8,954 bases of DNA from an uncultured Actinomycetes bacterium (GTDB lineage: Bacteria; Actinomycetota; Thermoleophilia; Solirubrobacterales; 70-9). Below, in pieces: positions 633 to 8,954 of the stretch; the stretch's first letter is position 1; each line of letters begins with the position of its first letter. The position numbers and the translations under genes were made by a program. The stretch spans positions 1 to 8,954 of the forward strand of contig CAMLHB010000084.1 of the NCBI GenBank assembly GCA_946479725.1, given 5' to 3'. Under the pieces are notes generated by a model, which saw only the letters and a list, made by a program, of their open reading frames with translations, did not search any database and was not told the DNA's origin.

Positions 633-1337
633 ATGGCCGACGACCGCGTCCTCGTGATCACGGGCGCATCCAGCGGTATCGGCGCCGCAACCGCGCGCGC
701 TGCCGCTGCCGACGGATACAGCCTGGTCCTGGCTGCACGTTCGACCGACAAGCTCAACGCGCTCGTCTCCGAGCTCGGCGAGGATCGCGCGATCGCCGTC
801 GGCACGGATGTGACCCTCTGGGAGGACAACGAGCGCCTCATCAACAGCGCGATCGACCGCTTCGGCCGCATCGACGCGGTCTTCGCCAACGCCGGCTTCG
901 GCGCCGCCCGCGGCTTCCTCGAGGAGAGCCCCGAGCACTGGCGCTCGATGGTCCTCACCAACGTCTACGGGGTGGCGCTGACGATCCGCGCCACCCTCCC
1001 CCACCTGCTCGAGCGCGGCGACGGCCACTTCCTCGTCACCAGCTCGATCGCCGGGCGGCGGGTGCTGCCGGGCTCGCTCTACTCGGCGACGAAGTGGGCG
1101 GCGACGGCGATTGGCGAGGCGCTGCGCCAGGAACTGCGGCAGATGCACGACAACCACGGGATCCGGGTCACCCTGATCGAGCCCGGCATGGTCGACACGC
1201 CCTTCTTCGACAATCGCCCCGGCAAGAGCGCCCTCAGCGACGAGGACATCGCCCGGGCCGTGATGTTCGCCCTCGAGCAGCCCGAGGGAGTCGACCTCAA
1301 CGAGATCCTGATCCGCCCGATCACCCAGTCGGGTTAG
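633..1337 (+). CDS. SDR family oxidoreductase, 234 aa
   Basis: This is a classical short-chain dehydrogenase/reductase, a cytosolic Rossmann-fold enzyme that interconverts alcohols and carbonyls with NAD(P)H. The nucleotide-binding TGASSGIG is at residues 10-17. AARS at 34-37 follows the second strand and places an arginine where NADP-preferring members have one, so NADPH is likely. The NAG motif is at 86-88, the structural/catalytic Asn at 110, the Ser pair at 137-138 and YSATK at 150-154 (Tyr150, Lys154). EPGMVDTPF at 183-191 is the usual strand and loop after the active site. Ser138 lies 12 residues before Tyr150, one fewer than in many family members. Length is normal. The ATG at 633 follows AGGAG by six bases, and the protein begins just before the first Rossmann strand, so the start is well supported. 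The gene stands alone, divergent from the SnoaL-like gene and convergent with the glycosyltransferase. The substrate cannot be assigned. Confidence 0.95.
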   Translation: MADDRVLVITGASSGIGAATARAAAADGYSLVLAARSTDKLNALVSELGEDRAIAVGTDVTLWEDNERLINSAIDRFGRIDAVFANAGFGAARGFLEESPEHWRSMVLTNVYGVALTIRATLPHLLERGDGHFLVTSSIAGRRVLPGSLYSATKWAATAIGEALRQELRQMHDNHGIRVTLIEPGMVDTPFFDNRPGKSALSDEDIARAVMFALEQPEGVDLNEILIRPITQSG

Positions 1338-2467: not shown

Positions 2468-5400
2468 CTACTTGCCCTTCTTCTTGCCGCAGGAGGTGAC
2501 GTTCAGCTTGAACTTGTTGTTGTCCTTCTTCTTCCCGTTCTGGCCCTTCATCTTCACGATCGCCCTCTGCTTCTTCGCGCAGAGGTTGGTCGAGTTGACG
2601 AGGAGGCCCTTCTCGCCGCCCTTCATGTTGAGGACGAACCGCTTGACCGGGACGTCGGGCGCCTTGCGGAAGACCGTCTTCAGGCCCCCGGTGCTGCCGC
2701 TGCTGATCACGCCGCGCAGGTAGACCTCCACCTGGCCGCGCAGATCGACCAGCAGGTCAGGCAGTTCGTTGTTGGAGGACACGAGGTAGACCTTGCCCTT
2801 CAACTTGCCTTTCAACAGCGGCGAATTCGCTTCCGCCGACCCGTAGACCGAGGCCTTCGGGCAGGTGTGGGAAGCCAGCTGCGGCCGCGTGCAGACGGTG
2901 CCGATGTGGCCCTGTTCGAGGAACAGCGACCGCGGCATCGTCACCGCCGTGCGGGCGATGTTGGCGTCGCCTTCACGCGCGGTCAGCACCGCCTTCAGGT
3001 GCGGGAACTTGTTCCGCACCGTCGGGCCGGAGAGCTGGATCTTCAGCTTCGGCTTGAAGCCGAGCCTGTTGCATCCGGTCGCCTGGAACGGATCGTTGAC
3101 CGCGTAGGAGCTGAACGTTGCCGGGTTCGCCGGGTCCGCGCCGCCGCCGTTGATCGCGCCCGTCGTCGCCTGCGCGGAGCAGTTCGTCGGGTTGAGCATG
3201 AACCGTTTGCGGTAGAGATCGATATCGATCTGCCGCAGGTCCAGCTTCACCCCGCCGAATACGTCGGGGATCTCGTCGGAGACCGCGTTGACCTGGGCGG
3301 TCTCCGGGTTGACGTTCAGCGCCACCCGGACGACCACGGTGCCGAGGTCGAACGGGCCGGCCAGCGCCGGCGTGGTGGTGACCAGGGAGACCGGCGCGCC
3401 CTTGTAGGGGCCGGCCAGCCAGACGTTCCCCGGCAGCTTCAACGGGTGGTCACCGGTGCCCGAGACGGTCGTGACCGTGCCCAGGAAGCTGTCTTCCGGA
3501 CAGCTCGGTTTATCCGACTCTTCCCTGCCGCTCTTGGCGGCCGCGGCCGCAATCGCCTCCTCCGGGCAGTAGGGGATCCCGGCAAGCTTGCCGGTCAGCC
3601 CCTTCGGCAGGGTGACGTTGACCACTTTCAGCTCCTGCTCACCGTCCTGCCGCGCGATGTGGACGTGGAACGGCGAGTAGGCGCCGCCTTCGGTGCTGTC
3701 GGGGTTCGCCTTGTAGGTCGGCGTGAACTTCCGCTCGGCCATGGTTTTCGGGCAGGCGCCCCCGGTCGGATCGGTGCTGAGGGTGACGGTCGAGTCGACC
3801 GGCTTCAGTTCACCAGGCCGCGCCCACGGTTCGAAGCGGCTGGTGCCCGTGGACGAGCAGATCGGCGGGCTGGTCAGCACGTTCTTGCCTCCGTCGAAAT
3901 GGACACGGATCTCTTCGAACGGGACCTGCGGCAGGCCCGACGGCAGCTGACCGAAGAACTCGTTGCTCAGCTGGTCGTCGATCACCGCGTTGAGCTGACC
4001 GGTCGTCTTGTTGGCCTTGACGTGGCCGACCAGGCGGGCGTTGATCCCCTCCTGTTCGCTCTTGGCTTCGAGCAGGATGCGGAACTGTTCGCCGGATTCG
4101 GGGTCGCGGGTCTTCTGTTCGCCGACGTAGACGTCGCCGACCAGCGGCTCCGACAGCGGCGCCGATTCGACTTCGACCGTGCCGATGTCCGACGCGGCCG
4201 GGCATTCGTTGTCCATCACCCGGACGCCCTTCTTGAACTGGGCGTCCGAGCAGGCAGCGAGGCCATTGGCGCCGGAGGGATTGATGCCCATGCCCTTCGG
4301 CAGCACCACTTCCGCTTTGCGCACGTGCGACTGCGAGATCCCTTCGGTTCCGCCGTTGCGGACTTCGCCGCCTTCTTTGGCGGGGTCGAAGGGCATTCTC
4401 GTCGTCACGGTTGCGGGAGCGGGCGAGTCGACGTTGTTCGTGCCGGCGTCGACTTCAAGCGATGGATCGAACGGGACGGACTCGCATCCGGTCGTTCTCA
4501 CCCCCGGCGGCAGCTTCGCCTGCCAGGGCGTCGATCCTTCGGGGAACGTCGGGTTCGGCTCGCCCCACGACTCGCCACGGAACCAGGTGGAGTAGAGGCC
4601 CTGCTGTTCGGCTGGGTCAAAGCAGGTCGTCGGCAGAGTGACGTGAGTGCCGTCACCCGACTGCCCGAAAGCAACGAGGCGGGATCTCAAGCTGGAGACC
4701 CCGACCGACGGGGGAGGCAGATGAATCGTGAAGTACTCGTGGAAGTCGCTCTCCCAGGCGACACCGCCTTCGAGAACGATGACTTTGCTGAACCCGATGA
4801 TGAAGCCCAAGCGGGCCGGTTCTCCGAATTTTGGCTCGAGGTTGTACACGGCGACCCTGGACCCTTTGGCTGCCTGCGGCGGAATCACGTATCCCCGCGG
4901 CAGGAAGGTCCCGGGAGGGGCGCCCGGCACCGGCACGGCGTTGGCGGTGTTGACCACCAGCCAGGTTTCGTTACGGCCGACGATCGTGCTCGGATCGCAT
5001 TTGGGGACGTGACCCATCTGGCCGCCCGAGCCGGGGATTTCGCCGATCGCTTCGAAATCTTCGTTCGAGCACTTTGGGCTGCTCTGGGGGTTCTCGGTGA
5101 AACCCACCGGCAGATCGACGCGCTCCGTTTTGAGCACACGGTCTTCATACGGTTCGATCAGCGGTTCGACGACTCCGGGGGCGACGGTTTCATGCCTGAT
5201 GATGTACTGGTCGAACGCGAACGGCGGGTGTCCCCCCGCCTGAGTGAAGAACAGGTCCGGCGTTTCCGAGGAGCAAAACGGTTTCGTCGTGTCCGTTTTG
5301 GTTGGGTCTTCTTCGACCTGATTTTCGTAGCAGACCCCCGATTGGAAGCCGTCGCCGGCCGTCGGCGGTTCATGCTGCGGTTCGACTACATCCCCGGTAT

Positions 5401-5476
5401 CCGCCGCTGCCGTGGCCGACAGCAAAAACAGTGCCCCGAGGCACATCAGAAGCAGCGCAAGCGAGCGCTTTGGCAT
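2468..5476 (-). CDS. Large secreted modular cysteine-rich protein, 1002 aa (paralog A)
   Basis: I do not recognise a named family. A Sec signal peptide (MPKRS, then a hydrophobic core at about 6-20, cleavage probably after ATAAA near 25) shows export. The mature chain has 18 cysteines, and four modules with the same plan can be read. Each has an LPxG-type strand, a Cys, a CP- or CD-containing turn leading to an xGTV-like strand, a G-x-VYL/VYVG segment, a PQVPF or PDVPV segment and a closing Cys. Approximate limits are 68-285, 331-540, 575-766 and 802-966. LPVGF is at 122, LPKGM at 392, LPKGL at 623 and MPRSL at 847. The last 36 residues are lysine-rich with KGQNGKKK (977-984) and one final Cys (996). 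No transmembrane anchor or LPxTG sorting signal ends the chain. The start is supported by AGGAGG at 5482-5487, five bases before the ATG. Paralog B lies upstream and the glycosyltransferase downstream. A surface or extracellular structural or binding role is an inference. Confidence 0.93.
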   Translation of the reverse strand: MPKRSLALLLMCLGALFLLSATAAADTGDVVEPQHEPPTAGDGFQSGVCYENQVEEDPTKTDTTKPFCSSETPDLFFTQAGGHPPFAFDQYIIRHETVAPGVVEPLIEPYEDRVLKTERVDLPVGFTENPQSSPKCSNEDFEAIGEIPGSGGQMGHVPKCDPSTIVGRNETWLVVNTANAVPVPGAPPGTFLPRGYVIPPQAAKGSRVAVYNLEPKFGEPARLGFIIGFSKVIVLEGGVAWESDFHEYFTIHLPPPSVGVSSLRSRLVAFGQSGDGTHVTLPTTCFDPAEQQGLYSTWFRGESWGEPNPTFPEGSTPWQAKLPPGVRTTGCESVPFDPSLEVDAGTNNVDSPAPATVTTRMPFDPAKEGGEVRNGGTEGISQSHVRKAEVVLPKGMGINPSGANGLAACSDAQFKKGVRVMDNECPAASDIGTVEVESAPLSEPLVGDVYVGEQKTRDPESGEQFRILLEAKSEQEGINARLVGHVKANKTTGQLNAVIDDQLSNEFFGQLPSGLPQVPFEEIRVHFDGGKNVLTSPPICSSTGTSRFEPWARPGELKPVDSTVTLSTDPTGGACPKTMAERKFTPTYKANPDSTEGGAYSPFHVHIARQDGEQELKVVNVTLPKGLTGKLAGIPYCPEEAIAAAAAKSGREESDKPSCPEDSFLGTVTTVSGTGDHPLKLPGNVWLAGPYKGAPVSLVTTTPALAGPFDLGTVVVRVALNVNPETAQVNAVSDEIPDVFGGVKLDLRQIDIDLYRKRFMLNPTNCSAQATTGAINGGGADPANPATFSSYAVNDPFQATGCNRLGFKPKLKIQLSGPTVRNKFPHLKAVLTAREGDANIARTAVTMPRSLFLEQGHIGTVCTRPQLASHTCPKASVYGSAEANSPLLKGKLKGKVYLVSSNNELPDLLVDLRGQVEVYLRGVISSGSTGGLKTVFRKAPDVPVKRFVLNMKGGEKGLLVNSTNLCAKKQRAIVKMKGQNGKKKDNNKFKLNVTSCGKKKGK
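2575..2602 (-). repeat. 28-base exact repeat, copy in paralog A
   Basis: These 28 bases recur exactly at 5765-5792 in paralog B, and 24 of them recur with one mismatch at 8664-8687 in paralog C. They encode the strongly conserved LVNSTNLC segment that closes module 4. The identity at DNA level exceeds what protein conservation alone requires and may reflect recent duplication or gene conversion. Confidence 0.8.
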
Positions 5477-5481
5477 TTAAT

Positions 5482-5506
5482 CCTCCTCGTTTTCCCTTAA
5501 CGAGGA
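5482..5506 (-). promoter_or_regulatory. Shine-Dalgarno of paralog A with a hairpin that covers it
   Basis: Reading the minus strand, a perfect eight-base inverted repeat TCCTCGTT (5506-5499) / AACGAGGA (5491-5484) encloses the seven-base loop AAGGGAA. Its 3' arm runs into the Shine-Dalgarno AGGAGG (5487-5482), covering four of the six bases, and the ATG is five bases further on. In the transcript the ribosome site would be partly closed when the hairpin forms, so initiation may be controlled by temperature, a ligand, a protein or an upstream ribosome. The symmetry is exact; the regulatory role is inferred. Confidence 0.6.
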
Positions 5507-5546
5507 CGCCCCCTGTAGCGCCCATGAACTACTCCTCCCGCAGAGG

Positions 5547-5574
5547 ACATTACACATGGGCACGGGTCTTTCAA
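5547..5574 (-). promoter_or_regulatory. Candidate promoter for paralog A
   Basis: On the minus strand TTGAAA (5574-5569) is followed after 16 bases by TAATGT (5552-5547), a plausible -35/-10 pair for a housekeeping sigma factor, although the -10 is poor. Transcription would begin near 5540, leaving a leader of about 60 bases that includes the ribosome-site hairpin. The surrounding region is much poorer in G+C (27 of 60 bases at 5581-5640) than the genes, as expected of promoter DNA. It overlaps an inverted repeat that could be an operator. Confidence 0.4.
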
Positions 5575-5588
5575 GTGCCTACATGTGT
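5552..5588 (-). repeat. Twelve-pair inverted repeat in the paralog A/B intergenic region
   Basis: ACACATGGGCAC (5552-5563) is the reverse complement of GTGCC plus CATGTGT (5575-5579 and 5582-5588), with a two-base bulge TA and an 11-base loop. The loop contains the candidate -35 hexamer and the left arm reaches into the candidate -10. It could be an operator dyad, or a hairpin in the RNA running from paralog B. Confidence 0.6.
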
Positions 5589-5609
5589 TACTACCTGAGT
5601 AACCGTTAC
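5587..5609 (-). repeat. GTTAC/GTAAC inverted repeat cluster
   Basis: GTTACT (5587-5592) and AGTAAC (5598-5603) form a six-base inverted repeat around five bases, and GTTAC (5605-5609) follows one base later, giving a second overlapping dyad GTAAC-C-GTTAC. Such overlapping half-sites can bind a dimeric regulator cooperatively or form alternative RNA stems. Each arm is short, so chance is possible. Confidence 0.4.
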
Positions 5610-5622
5610 AGCAAACCGTGAT

Positions 5623-5642
5623 GTGACACTGATCAGTGTCAC
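5623..5642 (-). repeat. Perfect 20-base palindrome downstream of paralog B
   Basis: GTGACACTGA (5623-5632) is followed directly by its own reverse complement (5633-5642). It begins 12 bases after the stop codon of paralog B. In RNA it gives an eight-pair stem with a GATC loop, so it may be a terminator without a U tract. As DNA it looks like the operator of a dimeric repressor. The symmetry is exact, but the sequence does not choose between these roles. Confidence 0.6.
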
Positions 5643-5654
5643 GCTGAGACCTAC

Positions 5655-8504
5655 CTACTTTTTCTTTTTCTTACCCTTGTGGCTGCAGGCGGTGCGCAGC
5701 TTCGGCTTGCTGTTGGCTTTCTTGCCGTTCTGGGCTTTGATCCGGATGATCGCTTTCACCGGCCTCGCGCAGAGGTTGGTCGAGTTGACGAGCAGCCCCT
5801 TCTTGCCCCCCGGCAGGGTCATCACGAACTTGGTCACCGGGACGTCGGGGACGCGGCCGAAGGTGGTGCGGATGCCGCCGCGGAAGCTGTCGATGCGACC
5901 GACGAGGTCGATGTCGACCTGGCCCTTCAGGTGGGCGACAAGATCCGGCAGCGGGTTGTTGGAGGAGCGCAGGTAGACCGGGCCTTCGAGCGGTTTTCCG
6001 AGCAACGGGGTGAAGGCCCGGGCCTTGCCGTAGATCGATTTCTTCGGGCAGTTTTCGGCCGCGAACTGGACCCGGGTGCAGACCTTCGCCAGGCTCGCCT
6101 GGTCGAGGAAGAGCGCGTGCGGCAGCGCCACCGAGGTCTTGCGGATGTTGGCGTCCTTGCCGCGGCCCTTGAGCACCGCGCGCAGTTTCGGGTGCTTGGC
6201 CCGCTGCATCTTCCCGAACAGGCGGATCTTCAGCTTCGGATGGAACTTCAGCTTGCGGCAGCCGCTGGCGCCGAAATCGGCAGCGACCTTGAAGGCGGAG
6301 TAGGAGGCCGGCTTCAGCGGGTCCGCCCCGCCGCCATTGAGCTCACCGCTGGTCGCCCCTTTGCGGCAGTTGGTGCCGTTGAGGGTGAATTCGTCGCGGT
6401 TGACGTTGAGGAAGATCGAGCGAATGTCGAGCTTGGTGCCGCCGTAGACATCGGGGATATCGGTGGTCTTGGGGTGAATCTGAGCGGTTTCGGGATCGAG
6501 GAAGAACGGCACCCGGACGACGACGTTGCCGAGGTCGAAGGGACCGGCCAGCGCCGGGGTGACGACCAGCAGCGAGAGCGGCGCGCCTTTGTAGCGCCCG
6601 GCGAGGTAAGCGTCCCCTTCGATCTGCAGCGGGTTGGGCCCGGTCCCGGCCTGCACCGTCGCCTCGCCGACCTTGCTCTCCTTCGGGCAGGCCGGATTCT
6701 TCTTCTCCGCCGCCCCCGAGCGCTTTTCGGTCTTCTCGATCGCGTCGGGCGGGCAGTACGGAACGCCTTTCAGCTTCGCCGTCGCCCCTTCCGGCAGGGT
6801 GATGTCGAGTCCTTTCAGCTCCTGCTGTCCGGGGGGGCGGGTGATGTGGGTCGAGAACGGGGTGAAGGTTTTCGCCTGGTCGCTTTTCGGCGTCGCGGTG
6901 AAGCCCGGGGCGAAGGGACGGGCGGCCATCGTCTTAGGGCAGTCGCCGCCGCCGGGCGCGTCGGCGAGGTCGAATCTGCTCGACGGCGTGGCGTCGGCGT
7001 TGCCCGACCAGGGCGTCAGCTGGCTGGTGGTCGTGTTCGGTCCGCAGGTCGGGGGGCTGCTCAAGGCCGCCTTTGGCCGCCCGTCGATGCTGAGGCGGAA
7101 GCTGGTGAAGGGAACCTGCGGTAGGCCGCTGGGCAGGTTGTCGGCATTCCCGCCGCGGGTGGTCGCCTTCGCCGGTTCGTCGAAGACGGCGGTCAGCTGG
7201 CCGGTCTGGGCGTTGGCGACGACGTTGCCGACCAGCCGCACCGAAATCCCGTAACGGGCCGACTCGGCGCCGACGAAGATGCGGAACTCTTCCCCCGATT
7301 CGGGATTGCGGCTCTTCTGCTCGCCGACGTAGATGTTGCCGGTCAGCGGGCCTTCGGGAAGCGGCGGCGTCGCCACCGAGACGGTCCCGATCTTCGAAGC
7401 GGCGGGGCAGGCGATCGGATCGCGGGTCCCCTTGCCGAACTGGGCGTCGGTGCAGGCCTTGAGGCCGTTGGCAGCGGACGGGTTGAGGCCGAGGCCGGCG
7501 GGCAGAGTCACCCGCGCCGTCCTCATCGTCGAGGTTTCCTGGCCGGTCGCGCTCGGTTCGATCGGCAGCTTCACCTCGGTCGTTACGCCGGCGGGCGAGT
7601 CGACCTGGTTGGTGCCGGGGTCGACGGCGATCGTCGGTTTGAAGGGGATCGAGCCGCAGTCTTTCGGGCTCGTTCCCGGCGGCAGCTTGGCCTCGACGAA
7701 GGGTGAGCCGTTGGGAAAACTCGGGTCCGGGTTCTGCAGCGAGTCGGCCCGGGCGTAGGTCGAGTAGGTGTGTTCGAAGGCGCCCGACGGCTGGAAGCAG
7801 GTGCTGGGATTGGTGAGGAAGTAGCCGCTGGCGGCCGAGCCGGCCCGGCCGTTGAAAACCAGGCGGTTTTTCAGCAGCCTCACCGAGGAGACCTTGGGCA
7901 CCTGGATCGTGAACCCCTCGTGGAAGTCCGACTCGTAGGCGACGTCGGCTTCGAGGTAGATGTCGTTCGGCGGCAGCAGAGGCAGGTCCGGCACCGCTTC
8001 GACGGTGAACCCGAAGCGCGCCGGCTGACCCTGCTTCGGCTTCAGGTTGAAGACCGACGCGGTGATCGGCACCGGCGGCAGCAGCGGCGCTTCCGGCGAG
8101 ACGGTGACGATGCTTTCACCGACTTTGGTGTTCAGCGGGCATTCTTTCGGATGCGCCGCCTCGCACTGCGGAACCGCTCCCGGGTTGACGCTGAGCCCGA
8201 CAGGGAGGTCGACCCGCAGCGTCTTCATGTCGACTTCCGGTTCTTCGTGCAGCAGTTCGGTTTTGTGGCGGACGATGAACTGGGTGATCCCGAAGAGCGG
8301 GTGCCCGGCGGCGGTTTCGTAGAACTCGGCTTTGGGGCTGTCCGGGGCGCAGGTCGCGATGTTGCAGGTGCCCGCCTGCCAGCCGTCACTTTCGCTCGGC
8401 GGGTTGTTCTGCGGCGAGAAGACGACTTCGCCGGCCTGGGCCGCGGGTACGAGCAGGAGGCCGATGACGGCAAGCAAAAGCAGCAGTGCGACCGGTTTCC
8501 TCAT
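5655..8504 (-). CDS. Large secreted modular cysteine-rich protein, 949 aa (paralog B)
   Basis: This is a close structural relative of paralog A over its whole length, from an unrecognised family. MRKP, a hydrophobic core at about 5-20 and AAQA before Gly25 form a Sec signal peptide. Its 18 mature cysteines match those of paralog A one for one. The four modules run at about 52-236, 283-487, 522-713 and 749-912. Modules 3 and 4 have the same cysteine span as in paralog A to within one residue (192 and 164). Shared segments include CPKTMA (522-527), IYVGEQKSRNPESGEEF (391-407), PALAGPFDLG (650-659), IPDVYGG (683-689), SSNNPLPDL (847-855) and GLLVNSTNLC (903-912). The tail (913-949) is basic, carries AQNGKK and ends in five lysines. 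No Shine-Dalgarno is visible before the ATG, and a hairpin (8509-8534) occupies that position. The start is chosen because the signal peptide begins there and no in-frame start lies just upstream. An extracellular structural or binding role is inferred. Confidence 0.92.
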   Translation of the reverse strand: MRKPVALLLLLAVIGLLLVPAAQAGEVVFSPQNNPPSESDGWQAGTCNIATCAPDSPKAEFYETAAGHPLFGITQFIVRHKTELLHEEPEVDMKTLRVDLPVGLSVNPGAVPQCEAAHPKECPLNTKVGESIVTVSPEAPLLPPVPITASVFNLKPKQGQPARFGFTVEAVPDLPLLPPNDIYLEADVAYESDFHEGFTIQVPKVSSVRLLKNRLVFNGRAGSAASGYFLTNPSTCFQPSGAFEHTYSTYARADSLQNPDPSFPNGSPFVEAKLPPGTSPKDCGSIPFKPTIAVDPGTNQVDSPAGVTTEVKLPIEPSATGQETSTMRTARVTLPAGLGLNPSAANGLKACTDAQFGKGTRDPIACPAASKIGTVSVATPPLPEGPLTGNIYVGEQKSRNPESGEEFRIFVGAESARYGISVRLVGNVVANAQTGQLTAVFDEPAKATTRGGNADNLPSGLPQVPFTSFRLSIDGRPKAALSSPPTCGPNTTTSQLTPWSGNADATPSSRFDLADAPGGGDCPKTMAARPFAPGFTATPKSDQAKTFTPFSTHITRPPGQQELKGLDITLPEGATAKLKGVPYCPPDAIEKTEKRSGAAEKKNPACPKESKVGEATVQAGTGPNPLQIEGDAYLAGRYKGAPLSLLVVTPALAGPFDLGNVVVRVPFFLDPETAQIHPKTTDIPDVYGGTKLDIRSIFLNVNRDEFTLNGTNCRKGATSGELNGGGADPLKPASYSAFKVAADFGASGCRKLKFHPKLKIRLFGKMQRAKHPKLRAVLKGRGKDANIRKTSVALPHALFLDQASLAKVCTRVQFAAENCPKKSIYGKARAFTPLLGKPLEGPVYLRSSNNPLPDLVAHLKGQVDIDLVGRIDSFRGGIRTTFGRVPDVPVTKFVMTLPGGKKGLLVNSTNLCARPVKAIIRIKAQNGKKANSKPKLRTACSHKGKKKKK
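5765..5792 (-). repeat. 28-base exact repeat, copy in paralog B
   Basis: This stretch is identical to 2575-2602 in paralog A, in the same orientation and reading frame, and encodes the LVNSTNLC motif. The two copies lie about 3.2 kb apart. Confidence 0.8.
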
Positions 8505-8508
8505 CTGT

Positions 8509-8534
8509 GCACGCCCGTACCCAGACGGGCGCGC
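8509..8534 (-). promoter_or_regulatory. GC-rich hairpin directly before the paralog B start
   Basis: CGCCCGT (8512-8518) and ACGGGCG (8525-8531) are perfect inverted repeats around a six-base loop. Across A8511/C8532, which is a U-G wobble in minus-strand RNA, the stem continues with two more pairs (8509-8510 with 8533-8534). In RNA this is a ten-pair stem ending four bases before the ATG of paralog B and starting nine bases after the stop of paralog C. It takes up the usual ribosome-site position in a 39-base gap that has no Shine-Dalgarno. It may be an intercistronic attenuator, an RNA stabiliser or a terminator without a U tract. Confidence 0.55.
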
Positions 8535-8543
8535 TGTTAATCG

Positions 8544-8954
8544 CTAGCCCTTGCGGTGTTTTTTCGCCTTGCGGCAGCTCGGCGTCCGCAGCGGCAGCTT
8601 CTTCACCATCAGGCTCTTGCCGTTCTGGCCCTTGAAGTTGAGGAAGGAGCGGTTGCGGTGGCCGCAGAGGTTGATCGAGTTGACGAGGAGGCCTTTCCTG
8701 CCGCCCTTCATCTTCAGCGTGAACTTGCTCACCGGCACGTCGGGGACGCTGTCGAAGACGGTCCGCATCCGCTGCTTCGAGGAGCTGATGACTCCGCGCA
8801 GTCGCACGTTCACCTGCCCCTTCAGGTCGGCCAGCAGGTCGGGCAGTTCGTGGTCGGAGGAAACCAGGTAGACGGGCCCGGCGACCGGGTCGTCGAGCAG
8901 CGGGCTCTCGGCCCAGGCGTATCCGTAGACCGAGCGAGCCGGGCATTCCGCGGC
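8544..8954 (-). CDS. Third tandem paralog (C), C-terminal 136 residues only
   Basis: The frame is open without a stop from the window edge at 8954 to the stop at 8546-8544. It reads AAECPARSVYGYAWAESPLL onward and matches the end of paralogs A and B throughout. It contains CP-x-RSVYG (CPKASVYG in A), GPVYLVSSDHELPDLLADL, LRGVISS, PDVPVSKFTLKMKGG, GLLVNSINLC and a basic tail with KGQNGK. Its three visible cysteines fall in the columns of Cys872, Cys966 and Cys996 of paralog A. This is therefore the second half of module 4 plus the tail, not a small separate gene. A GTG at 8813 is internal (the VNVRL segment) and should not be taken as a start. The rest of the protein, presumably about 800 further residues with a signal peptide, lies beyond the window. 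It precedes paralog B by 39 bases on the same strand. Confidence 0.93.
   Translation of the reverse strand, partial: AAECPARSVYGYAWAESPLLDDPVAGPVYLVSSDHELPDLLADLKGQVNVRLRGVISSSKQRMRTVFDSVPDVPVSKFTLKMKGGRKGLLVNSINLCGHRNRSFLNFKGQNGKSLMVKKLPLRTPSCRKAKKHRKG

Follow-up and report, generated by a model that had tools for sequence, protein, structure and literature searches.

Tandem genes for exported four-unit proteins with a conserved cysteine framework in an uncultured actinobacterium

Fibrillar adhesins are defined, in the part of the account that we draw on, by large length, an adhesive region, a repetitive rod-like stalk and a surface anchor (PMC9210967). Among actinobacteria, the giant adhesin of Mobiluncus mulieris has 7645-7651 residues and 51 tandem immunoglobulin (Ig)-like domains with ester or isopeptide cross-links, and carries an LPxTG motif; according to the portion of the report used here, the one isopeptide domain examined contains a disulfide (PMC10619420). 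Here we describe a tandem array of three related genes, A, B and C, in an 8,954-nucleotide stretch of DNA (the window; contig CAMLHB010000084.1) from an uncultured member of the Actinomycetes. All three lie on the reverse strand: A at 2468-5476 (an open reading frame (ORF) of 1002 amino acids (aa), the third gene of the array), B at 5655-8504 (949 aa, the second), and C at 8544-8954, where the last 136 aa are visible before the frame runs off the window edge; C is the first array gene in relatives. We propose, with a probability of roughly 0.55, that the products of these genes are exported, rod-like, four-domain Ig-like surface chains that act as a disulfide-held stalk or fibrillar-adhesin-like protein and do not depend on sortase.

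Much of what the cited account says of fibrillar adhesins recurs in this protein family, which is exported and long, has predicted tandem Ig-like units in variable copy number, and varies most in its N-terminal domain. Relatives of the 949- and 1002-aa proteins reach 4631, 5601 and about 7200 aa; there are four homologous units (U1 to U4) in A and B and up to 32 in relatives, from which we infer a rod shape. Unlike fibrillar adhesins, to the extent that the source describes them, A and B have no recognised adhesive domain, sortase motif, recognised anchor or Pfam stalk family, and the unit cysteines of the family are conserved. The likeness to the Mobiluncus giant lies in actinobacterial origin and tandem cross-linked Ig-like domains, the largest protein here (from genome G136) having 32 units in about 7200 residues and cross-links that are probably disulfides; judged by the same portion of its report, the differences are the four conserved cysteines (two apparent disulfides) in each unit of ~220 residues, the U2-U3 periodicity and the lack of a sortase motif. 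MSCRAMM and pilin domains (ACE, CNA, CppA) are beta-sandwich surface proteins, as A and B are predicted to be. However, searches of the Protein Data Bank (PDB) found no sequence similarity to them, neither A nor B has a match in Pfam or NCBIfam, and the LPxTG sortase anchor typical of MSCRAMM and CNA-type adhesins was not found in the family sequences scanned. If our proposal is true, these cells assemble long surface chains that need no sortase and are cross-linked by disulfides, where the adhesins of better-studied Gram-positives have isopeptide or ester links.

The mature chains of A and B contain 18 cysteines each, at residues 49, 68, 136, 160, 285, 331, 409, 425, 540, 575, 637, 659, 766, 802, 862, 872, 966 and 996 of A and residues 47, 52, 114, 122, 236, 283, 351, 366, 487, 522, 584, 606, 713, 749, 809, 819, 912 and 940 of B; A has one further cysteine, C12, inside its signal peptide. 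A first-pass annotation of the window had given these lengths and positions exactly. It had also paired the 18 cysteines one for one, a claim whose outcome varies with the alignment. A and B are 46% identical in a near end-to-end alignment (793 bits), and BLASTP places 17 of the 18 mature cysteines in common columns, the exception being A68/B52; a three-sequence MAFFT alignment recovers 16, and MAFFT with 240 added homologues recovers all 18. The added homologues are near relatives, at least about 70% identical to A or B, and in this 242-row alignment 15 columns are cysteine in every row, two in 241 and that of B122 in 232. The three visible cysteines of C fall in the columns of A872/B819, A966/B912 and A996 in the three-sequence alignment, as had been claimed.

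The framework separates into two parts in a more diverse alignment of 121 rows, made up of A, B and 119 of 360 returned homologues (from 122 diversity picks, with seven longer sequences removed and four others added). Each of the 16 positions from B114 to B940 is cysteine in at least 120 rows; the two exceptions are P0356, in which a cysteine lies next to the column by eye, and P0329, which is without the last cysteine. The columns of B47 and B52, however, hold cysteine in all 31 array-type rows and in none of the 90 rows from dispersed paralogs. The number 18 is 4 x 4 + 2, that is, four four-cysteine units and an N-terminal pair confined to array members. The framework first described as invariant holds for A, B and close homologues, and in the wider family 16 of its cysteines are conserved.

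That A and B each consist of four homologous units of ~220 residues, with four cysteines per unit, is well supported. Profiles of the units match one another at 98.4% (U1-U2), 98.1% (U1-U3), 97.6% (U2-U3) and 99.3% (U2-U4), and weakly for U1-U4 (58%) and U3-U4 (56%), with the four cysteines in register in the U1-U2 and U1-U3 profile alignments. The stretch N-terminal to the units matched none of the four profiles. Plain pairwise similarity among the domains of B is low (25-35% identity, with shuffle z from 0.7 for D1-D4 to 9.6 for D1-D2); hence, the case for a repeat rests on the profiles. On the reverse strand, the domains of B are D1 (~residues 61-283, positions 7656-8324, Cys 114, 122, 236 and 283), D2 (~residues 288-522, 6939-7643, Cys 351, 366, 487 and 522), both with extrapolated borders, D3 (~residues 527-749, 6258-6926, Cys 584, 606, 713 and 749) and D4 (~residues 754-940, 5685-6245, Cys 809, 819, 912 and 940), after which comes a lysine-rich tail. 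Cys 47 and 52, the pair specific to the array, directly precede D1. Borders transferred from B give for A, on the same strand, D1 (~residues 76-331, 4484-5251, Cys 136, 160, 285 and 331), D2 (~residues 336-575, 3752-4471, Cys 409, 425, 540 and 575), D3 (~residues 580-802, 3071-3739, Cys 637, 659, 766 and 802) and D4 (~residues 807-996, 2489-3058, Cys 862, 872, 966 and 996), again with a lysine-rich tail. Before D1, at B residues 64-69, most of the 121 rows, from the array and dispersed groups alike, retain a motif Q/T-A-G/A-G/S/A-H-P.

AlphaFold models B as a confident chain of beta-sandwich domains (mean predicted local distance difference test score (pLDDT) 90.6, predicted template modelling score (pTM) 0.84), and D3 modelled alone (residues 524-752) reached a pLDDT of 92.0 and a pTM of 0.88. 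The domains are predicted to be most like Ig-like surface domains: the best fold matches for the chain, and near-best for D3, are ACE (2z1p/2okm), CNA (2f6a) and CppA (5xcb), at 5-10% identity over 137-147 residues and 3.4-4.7 Å, and the YcnI copper-binding domain (7me6) also appears among the matches for D3. A Foldseek search of the PDB with the whole chain listed entries such as integrin, mastigoneme and ClfA at template modelling (TM)-scores of 0.25 or less, which we read as generic beta-sandwich chains. The matches listed from a viral structure library were uninformative, being generic multi-domain entries that scored 0.19 or less by TM.

Two observations bear on how the cysteines pair. 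C3 and C4 are jointly missing, with C1 and C2 still in place, from seven distinct U2 units, of which five belong to a single giant protein; 373 of 418 unit instances carry all four cysteines, and flagged units were set aside by eye where an alignment shift, a sliced U4 tail or a cut at the end of a locus was evident. Moreover, cysteine totals are mostly even. Across the 90 dispersed rows, counting from residue 41, the total is 18 cysteines in 62, 16 in 19 and 20 in 4, and it is odd in 5. Because C3 and C4 are lost jointly and totals are even, the data fit C1-C2 and C3-C4 bonds, and two intradomain disulfides per domain appear likely on these grounds. Two further U1 columns are cysteine in 67 and 53 of the 121 rows; these probably hold the extra pair of the dispersed rows, which would then reach 18 by a route different from that of the array. 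The VKOR family, which is linked to disulfide formation, was found in 11 of 11 genomes searched and in 3 of 14 control genomes. The disulfide scaffold suggested in the first-pass annotation is probable.

Reading family ORFs with the four unit profiles revealed wide variation in unit number. Among 74 four-unit ORFs, 43 have 16 cysteines, 28 have 18, and one each has 15, 17 or 19. Two-unit proteins of the form U1-U4 (569-598 aa where whole) carry 7-8 unit cysteines and may be similar to the ancestral form; examples are found at loci L073, L074, L075, L076 and L079. At the other extreme, a 4631-aa protein of genome G181 (L027) has 20 units with 79 cysteines in the unit region, and a 5601-aa protein of G133 (L026) has 24 units with 89. 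Across 87 ORFs, cysteine number rises with unit number at 3.74 per unit (r = 0.985), where identical sequences were counted once, overlapping loci were not otherwise merged, and five proteins split into 3, 5 or 6 hits were left in as called. A third giant, from G136 (L025/L083; a 7223-aa frame), was kept outside this fit; a hand count over two overlapping pieces gives 17 + 15 = 32 units. All three giants have the pattern U1-(U2-U3)n-U4, with n = 9, 11 and 15, if a small number of inner units that were assigned to U1 are taken as U3; this pattern suggests growth by U2-U3 pairs. After U4, the giants have a longer lysine-rich C-terminal region. The series of 2, 4, 20, 24 and 32 units amounts to a natural experiment on the growth of giant surface proteins.

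Export, as claimed in the first-pass annotation, is supported. On the reverse strand, A begins with a Sec-type signal peptide at ~residues 1-25 (5402-5476; peak hydropathy 2.35 within the first 60 aa) and B at ~residues 1-24 (8433-8504; peak 2.69), both judged from sequence, and by a hydropathy cut-off A, B and 335 of 360 homologues have a hydrophobic N-terminus. The C-terminal tail is strongly basic and rich in lysine. We found none of nine sortase motifs in the 360 homologues and no LPxTG in the last 60 residues of 488 family sequences, and sortase itself was detected in two of 11 genomes, neither of them among G001-G005. Given the basic tail, the missing sortase motif and the absence of sortase from 9 of 11 genomes, any attachment to the cell would probably be by charge or through partners. 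Since the proteins are exported, with cysteine-bearing Ig-like units, a variable unit number, an N-terminal domain that varies most and, in three of 13 other members scanned, extra N-terminal domains above the cut-off, they appear to work most like a stalk. In the mechanism that we favour, the four domains would have arisen by duplication and the family would grow longer through the insertion of complete U2-U3 pairs, the first unit (U1) and last unit (U4) staying fixed. The three array genes would probably be controlled by a divergent winged-helix regulator; the lysine-rich C-terminus would most likely sit at the cell envelope with the more variable N-terminal domain outward, and the chain would serve as a stalk or fibrillar-adhesin-like protein. 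The proposal builds on computed results for homology, internal repeats, the scaling of cysteines with units, orthology, synteny and purifying selection; the fold is predicted, and we infer the disulfide pairing, from cysteine patterns, as well as the rod shape, orientation, charge-based anchoring, adhesion and regulation.

The same proteins could be packed side by side as subunits of a cell-surface layer or matrix, forming a coat or sheath of which the three array genes encode three conserved components. We regard this as unlikely. SLH domains, the one kind of S-layer anchor searched, were found in 0 of 11 genomes, compared with matches in 4 of 14 controls; a uniform lattice would hardly be made of so many divergent, dispersed paralogs or of giants of up to 32 units; and the S-layer and BslA fold matches do not stand out from numerous unrelated Ig-like ones. 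One member scanned, P0349, has NHL/SGL matches. These, together with the cohesin, YcnI and collagen-binding domains among the fold matches of D3 and a Peptidase_S15-like gene within the array of G005, lend some weight to the idea that these are secreted ligand- or polysaccharide-binding proteins, with a substrate for each domain, that capture nutrients alongside secreted enzymes. However, A and B match no carbohydrate-binding family, the inserted gene was characterised in one genome only, and the fold matches are generic Ig-like ones, making this idea more doubtful still than a surface layer.

In a quick tree of 49 rows, with Shimodaira-Hasegawa-like approximate likelihood ratio (SH-aLRT) support only, B and C each form one clade (100), as do A-position genes (100) if one gene from another contig of G004 is included; array genes and this G004 gene are separate from the other dispersed genes (100). 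Ratios of non-synonymous to synonymous substitution rates (dN/dS) between near relatives are 0.22-0.23 for B and C, with higher values (0.28-0.45) for A. Array genes of G001 and G002 are reciprocal best hits at 79-81% identity, whereas eight dispersed G001 members that were fetched find their best G002 match at 36-50%, two of the eight reciprocally; this comparison covered 11 of 13 G001 and all 10 G002 copies. One G001 pair, 74% identical, is a younger duplication. We conclude that each of A, B and C represents an old orthologous lineage, kept in a fixed order and under purifying selection. Turnover, as far as these sequence comparisons suggest, resides in the dispersed paralogs and not in the array.

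These results bear on the proposal, made in the first-pass annotation, that tandem copies diverging between the cysteines form a diversifying surface or extracellular system; phage or predator pressure would be one possible driver. A and B are indeed only 46% identical, and in the first four 80-codon blocks of A, compared with G002, the proportion of non-synonymous differences (pN) is high at 0.23-0.44, with pN/pS (pS, the synonymous counterpart) of 0.44-0.88. In the other eight blocks pN is 0.03-0.17, although the last also has a high ratio (0.17/0.19), and in the same N-terminal part of B pN is 0.04-0.25; the fast part of A corresponds to window positions 4484-5476. Nevertheless, the position-specific clades, the whole-gene dN/dS of 0.22-0.45 and the reciprocal best hits at 79-81% argue against the array as a diversifying system, which we consider very improbable. 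What survives of the proposal is that the N-terminal third of A changes fast and that dispersed paralogs diverge; it does not extend to the array as a whole.

We found family matches in 26 of 50 genomes of the taxonomic family of G002, in 24 of 199 genomes of a class-level draw (four candidates scored per genome) and in 3 of 296 of a phylum-level draw (three candidates scored per genome), one of these being the centre and the other two weak. In nine genomes of the G002 taxonomic family, clear matches comprise only the short form (open frames of 381-601 aa). A hand count, merging pieces that belong to the same gene and omitting one short fragment, gives 7 family genes in G005, 10 in G002, 13 in G001 and at least 18 in G003. 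P0002, 90% identical to B, is named Solirubrobacterales, and among the matches listed the named homologues are Solirubrobacterales or unresolved Actinobacteria, with the exception of P0323, labelled Tepidisphaeraceae (Planctomycetes). Among the sequences compared, the best match of P0323 is P0339 (60%), followed by G202 of the class sample (52%). We did not use P0323 as evidence of presence in Planctomycetes, since transfer and a binning error are equally likely. All eight genome records looked up are metagenome-assembled.

This large exported family carries no annotation in any library that was searched. One homologue search scored 7998 candidates and retained 4530 homologues, of which the 120 listed were all unnamed or 'hypothetical'. 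Neither A nor B matched Pfam or NCBIfam; a match of C to DUF7850 (E 0.25) was below the cut-off and dropped, and among ten diverse members scanned with Pfam, one matched He_PIG (Ig; E 0.0029) and one Tir_receptor_M (E 0.035), neither of which we treat as an assignment. A sequence search of the PDB gave LptA at E 0.57, and a profile search of the PDB nothing, in agreement with the first-pass annotation, in which no named family with this plan was recognised. No paper on the family was found by title or start of abstract in a literature search that left out preprints and most subscription papers. A bolder and, in our estimation, improbable extension of the stalk proposal is an undescribed sortase-independent fibre system of largely uncultured actinobacteria, in which the A/B/C core and its regulator would make a common fibre or coat that the quickly changing dispersed paralogs decorate, built from a two-disulfide Ig-like unit and lengthened by U2-U3 pairs (2, 4, 20, 24 or 32 units). 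The three-gene core locus is a defined genetic target, if a culturable member exists.

The organisation of the locus is conserved. In relatives the order is a divergent regulator, C, B, A, a glycosyltransferase, and then a reverse dehydrogenase and/or a cytochrome c assembly gene. The whole cluster is present in seven genomes (G001, G002, G003, G005, G495, G496 and G499), with exactly three copies in each, which sharpens the earlier statement of at least three; G497 and G500 have it in fragments, and G004 and G502 have a single array-type copy at the equivalent position without the glycosyltransferase. The regulator is a winged-helix, HTH_20/MarR-like protein; at a threshold of E 1e-30, 12 of the 50 genomes of the G002 taxonomic family have a match. 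By coordinates, each of the 12 has one such match adjoining an array-type gene in divergent orientation; further matches occur elsewhere in G496. At E 1e-15 no regulator was found in some genomes with family genes, such as G501, G493 and G494. The window ends inside C, so the regulator gene of its own array is out of view.

In the window, C and B are separated by 39 bases and B and A by 178. An Rfam scan gave no matches, and a promoter scan of 5400-8700 gave no sites (0.2 expected) and a terminator scan of the same interval seven (4.2 expected), neither of which we used as evidence. Next downstream of A, on the reverse strand, is the conserved family 2 glycosyltransferase (1379-2404). We rejected it as a dedicated partner: an orthologue occurs in 40 of the 50 genomes of the G002 taxonomic family, many of which lack array genes, and is absent from G004 and G502 with their single array-type copy, so it is probably a bystander. 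Convergent with the array is a short-chain dehydrogenase (633-1337, forward strand), a syntenic marker, beyond which lie a SnoaL-like gene (about 180-620) and the N-terminal part of an Obg GTPase (1-240; PF01018, E 2.8e-21), both on the reverse strand. Since relatives have a CcmF-like gene beyond the dehydrogenase, synteny breaks there. G005 and G499 have extra sequence between B and A: in G005 this is the Peptidase_S15-like gene (L023, 7800-10151), and in G499 an insert of about 2.5 kb (L067, 10880-13411) in which the frame tried contained a stop.

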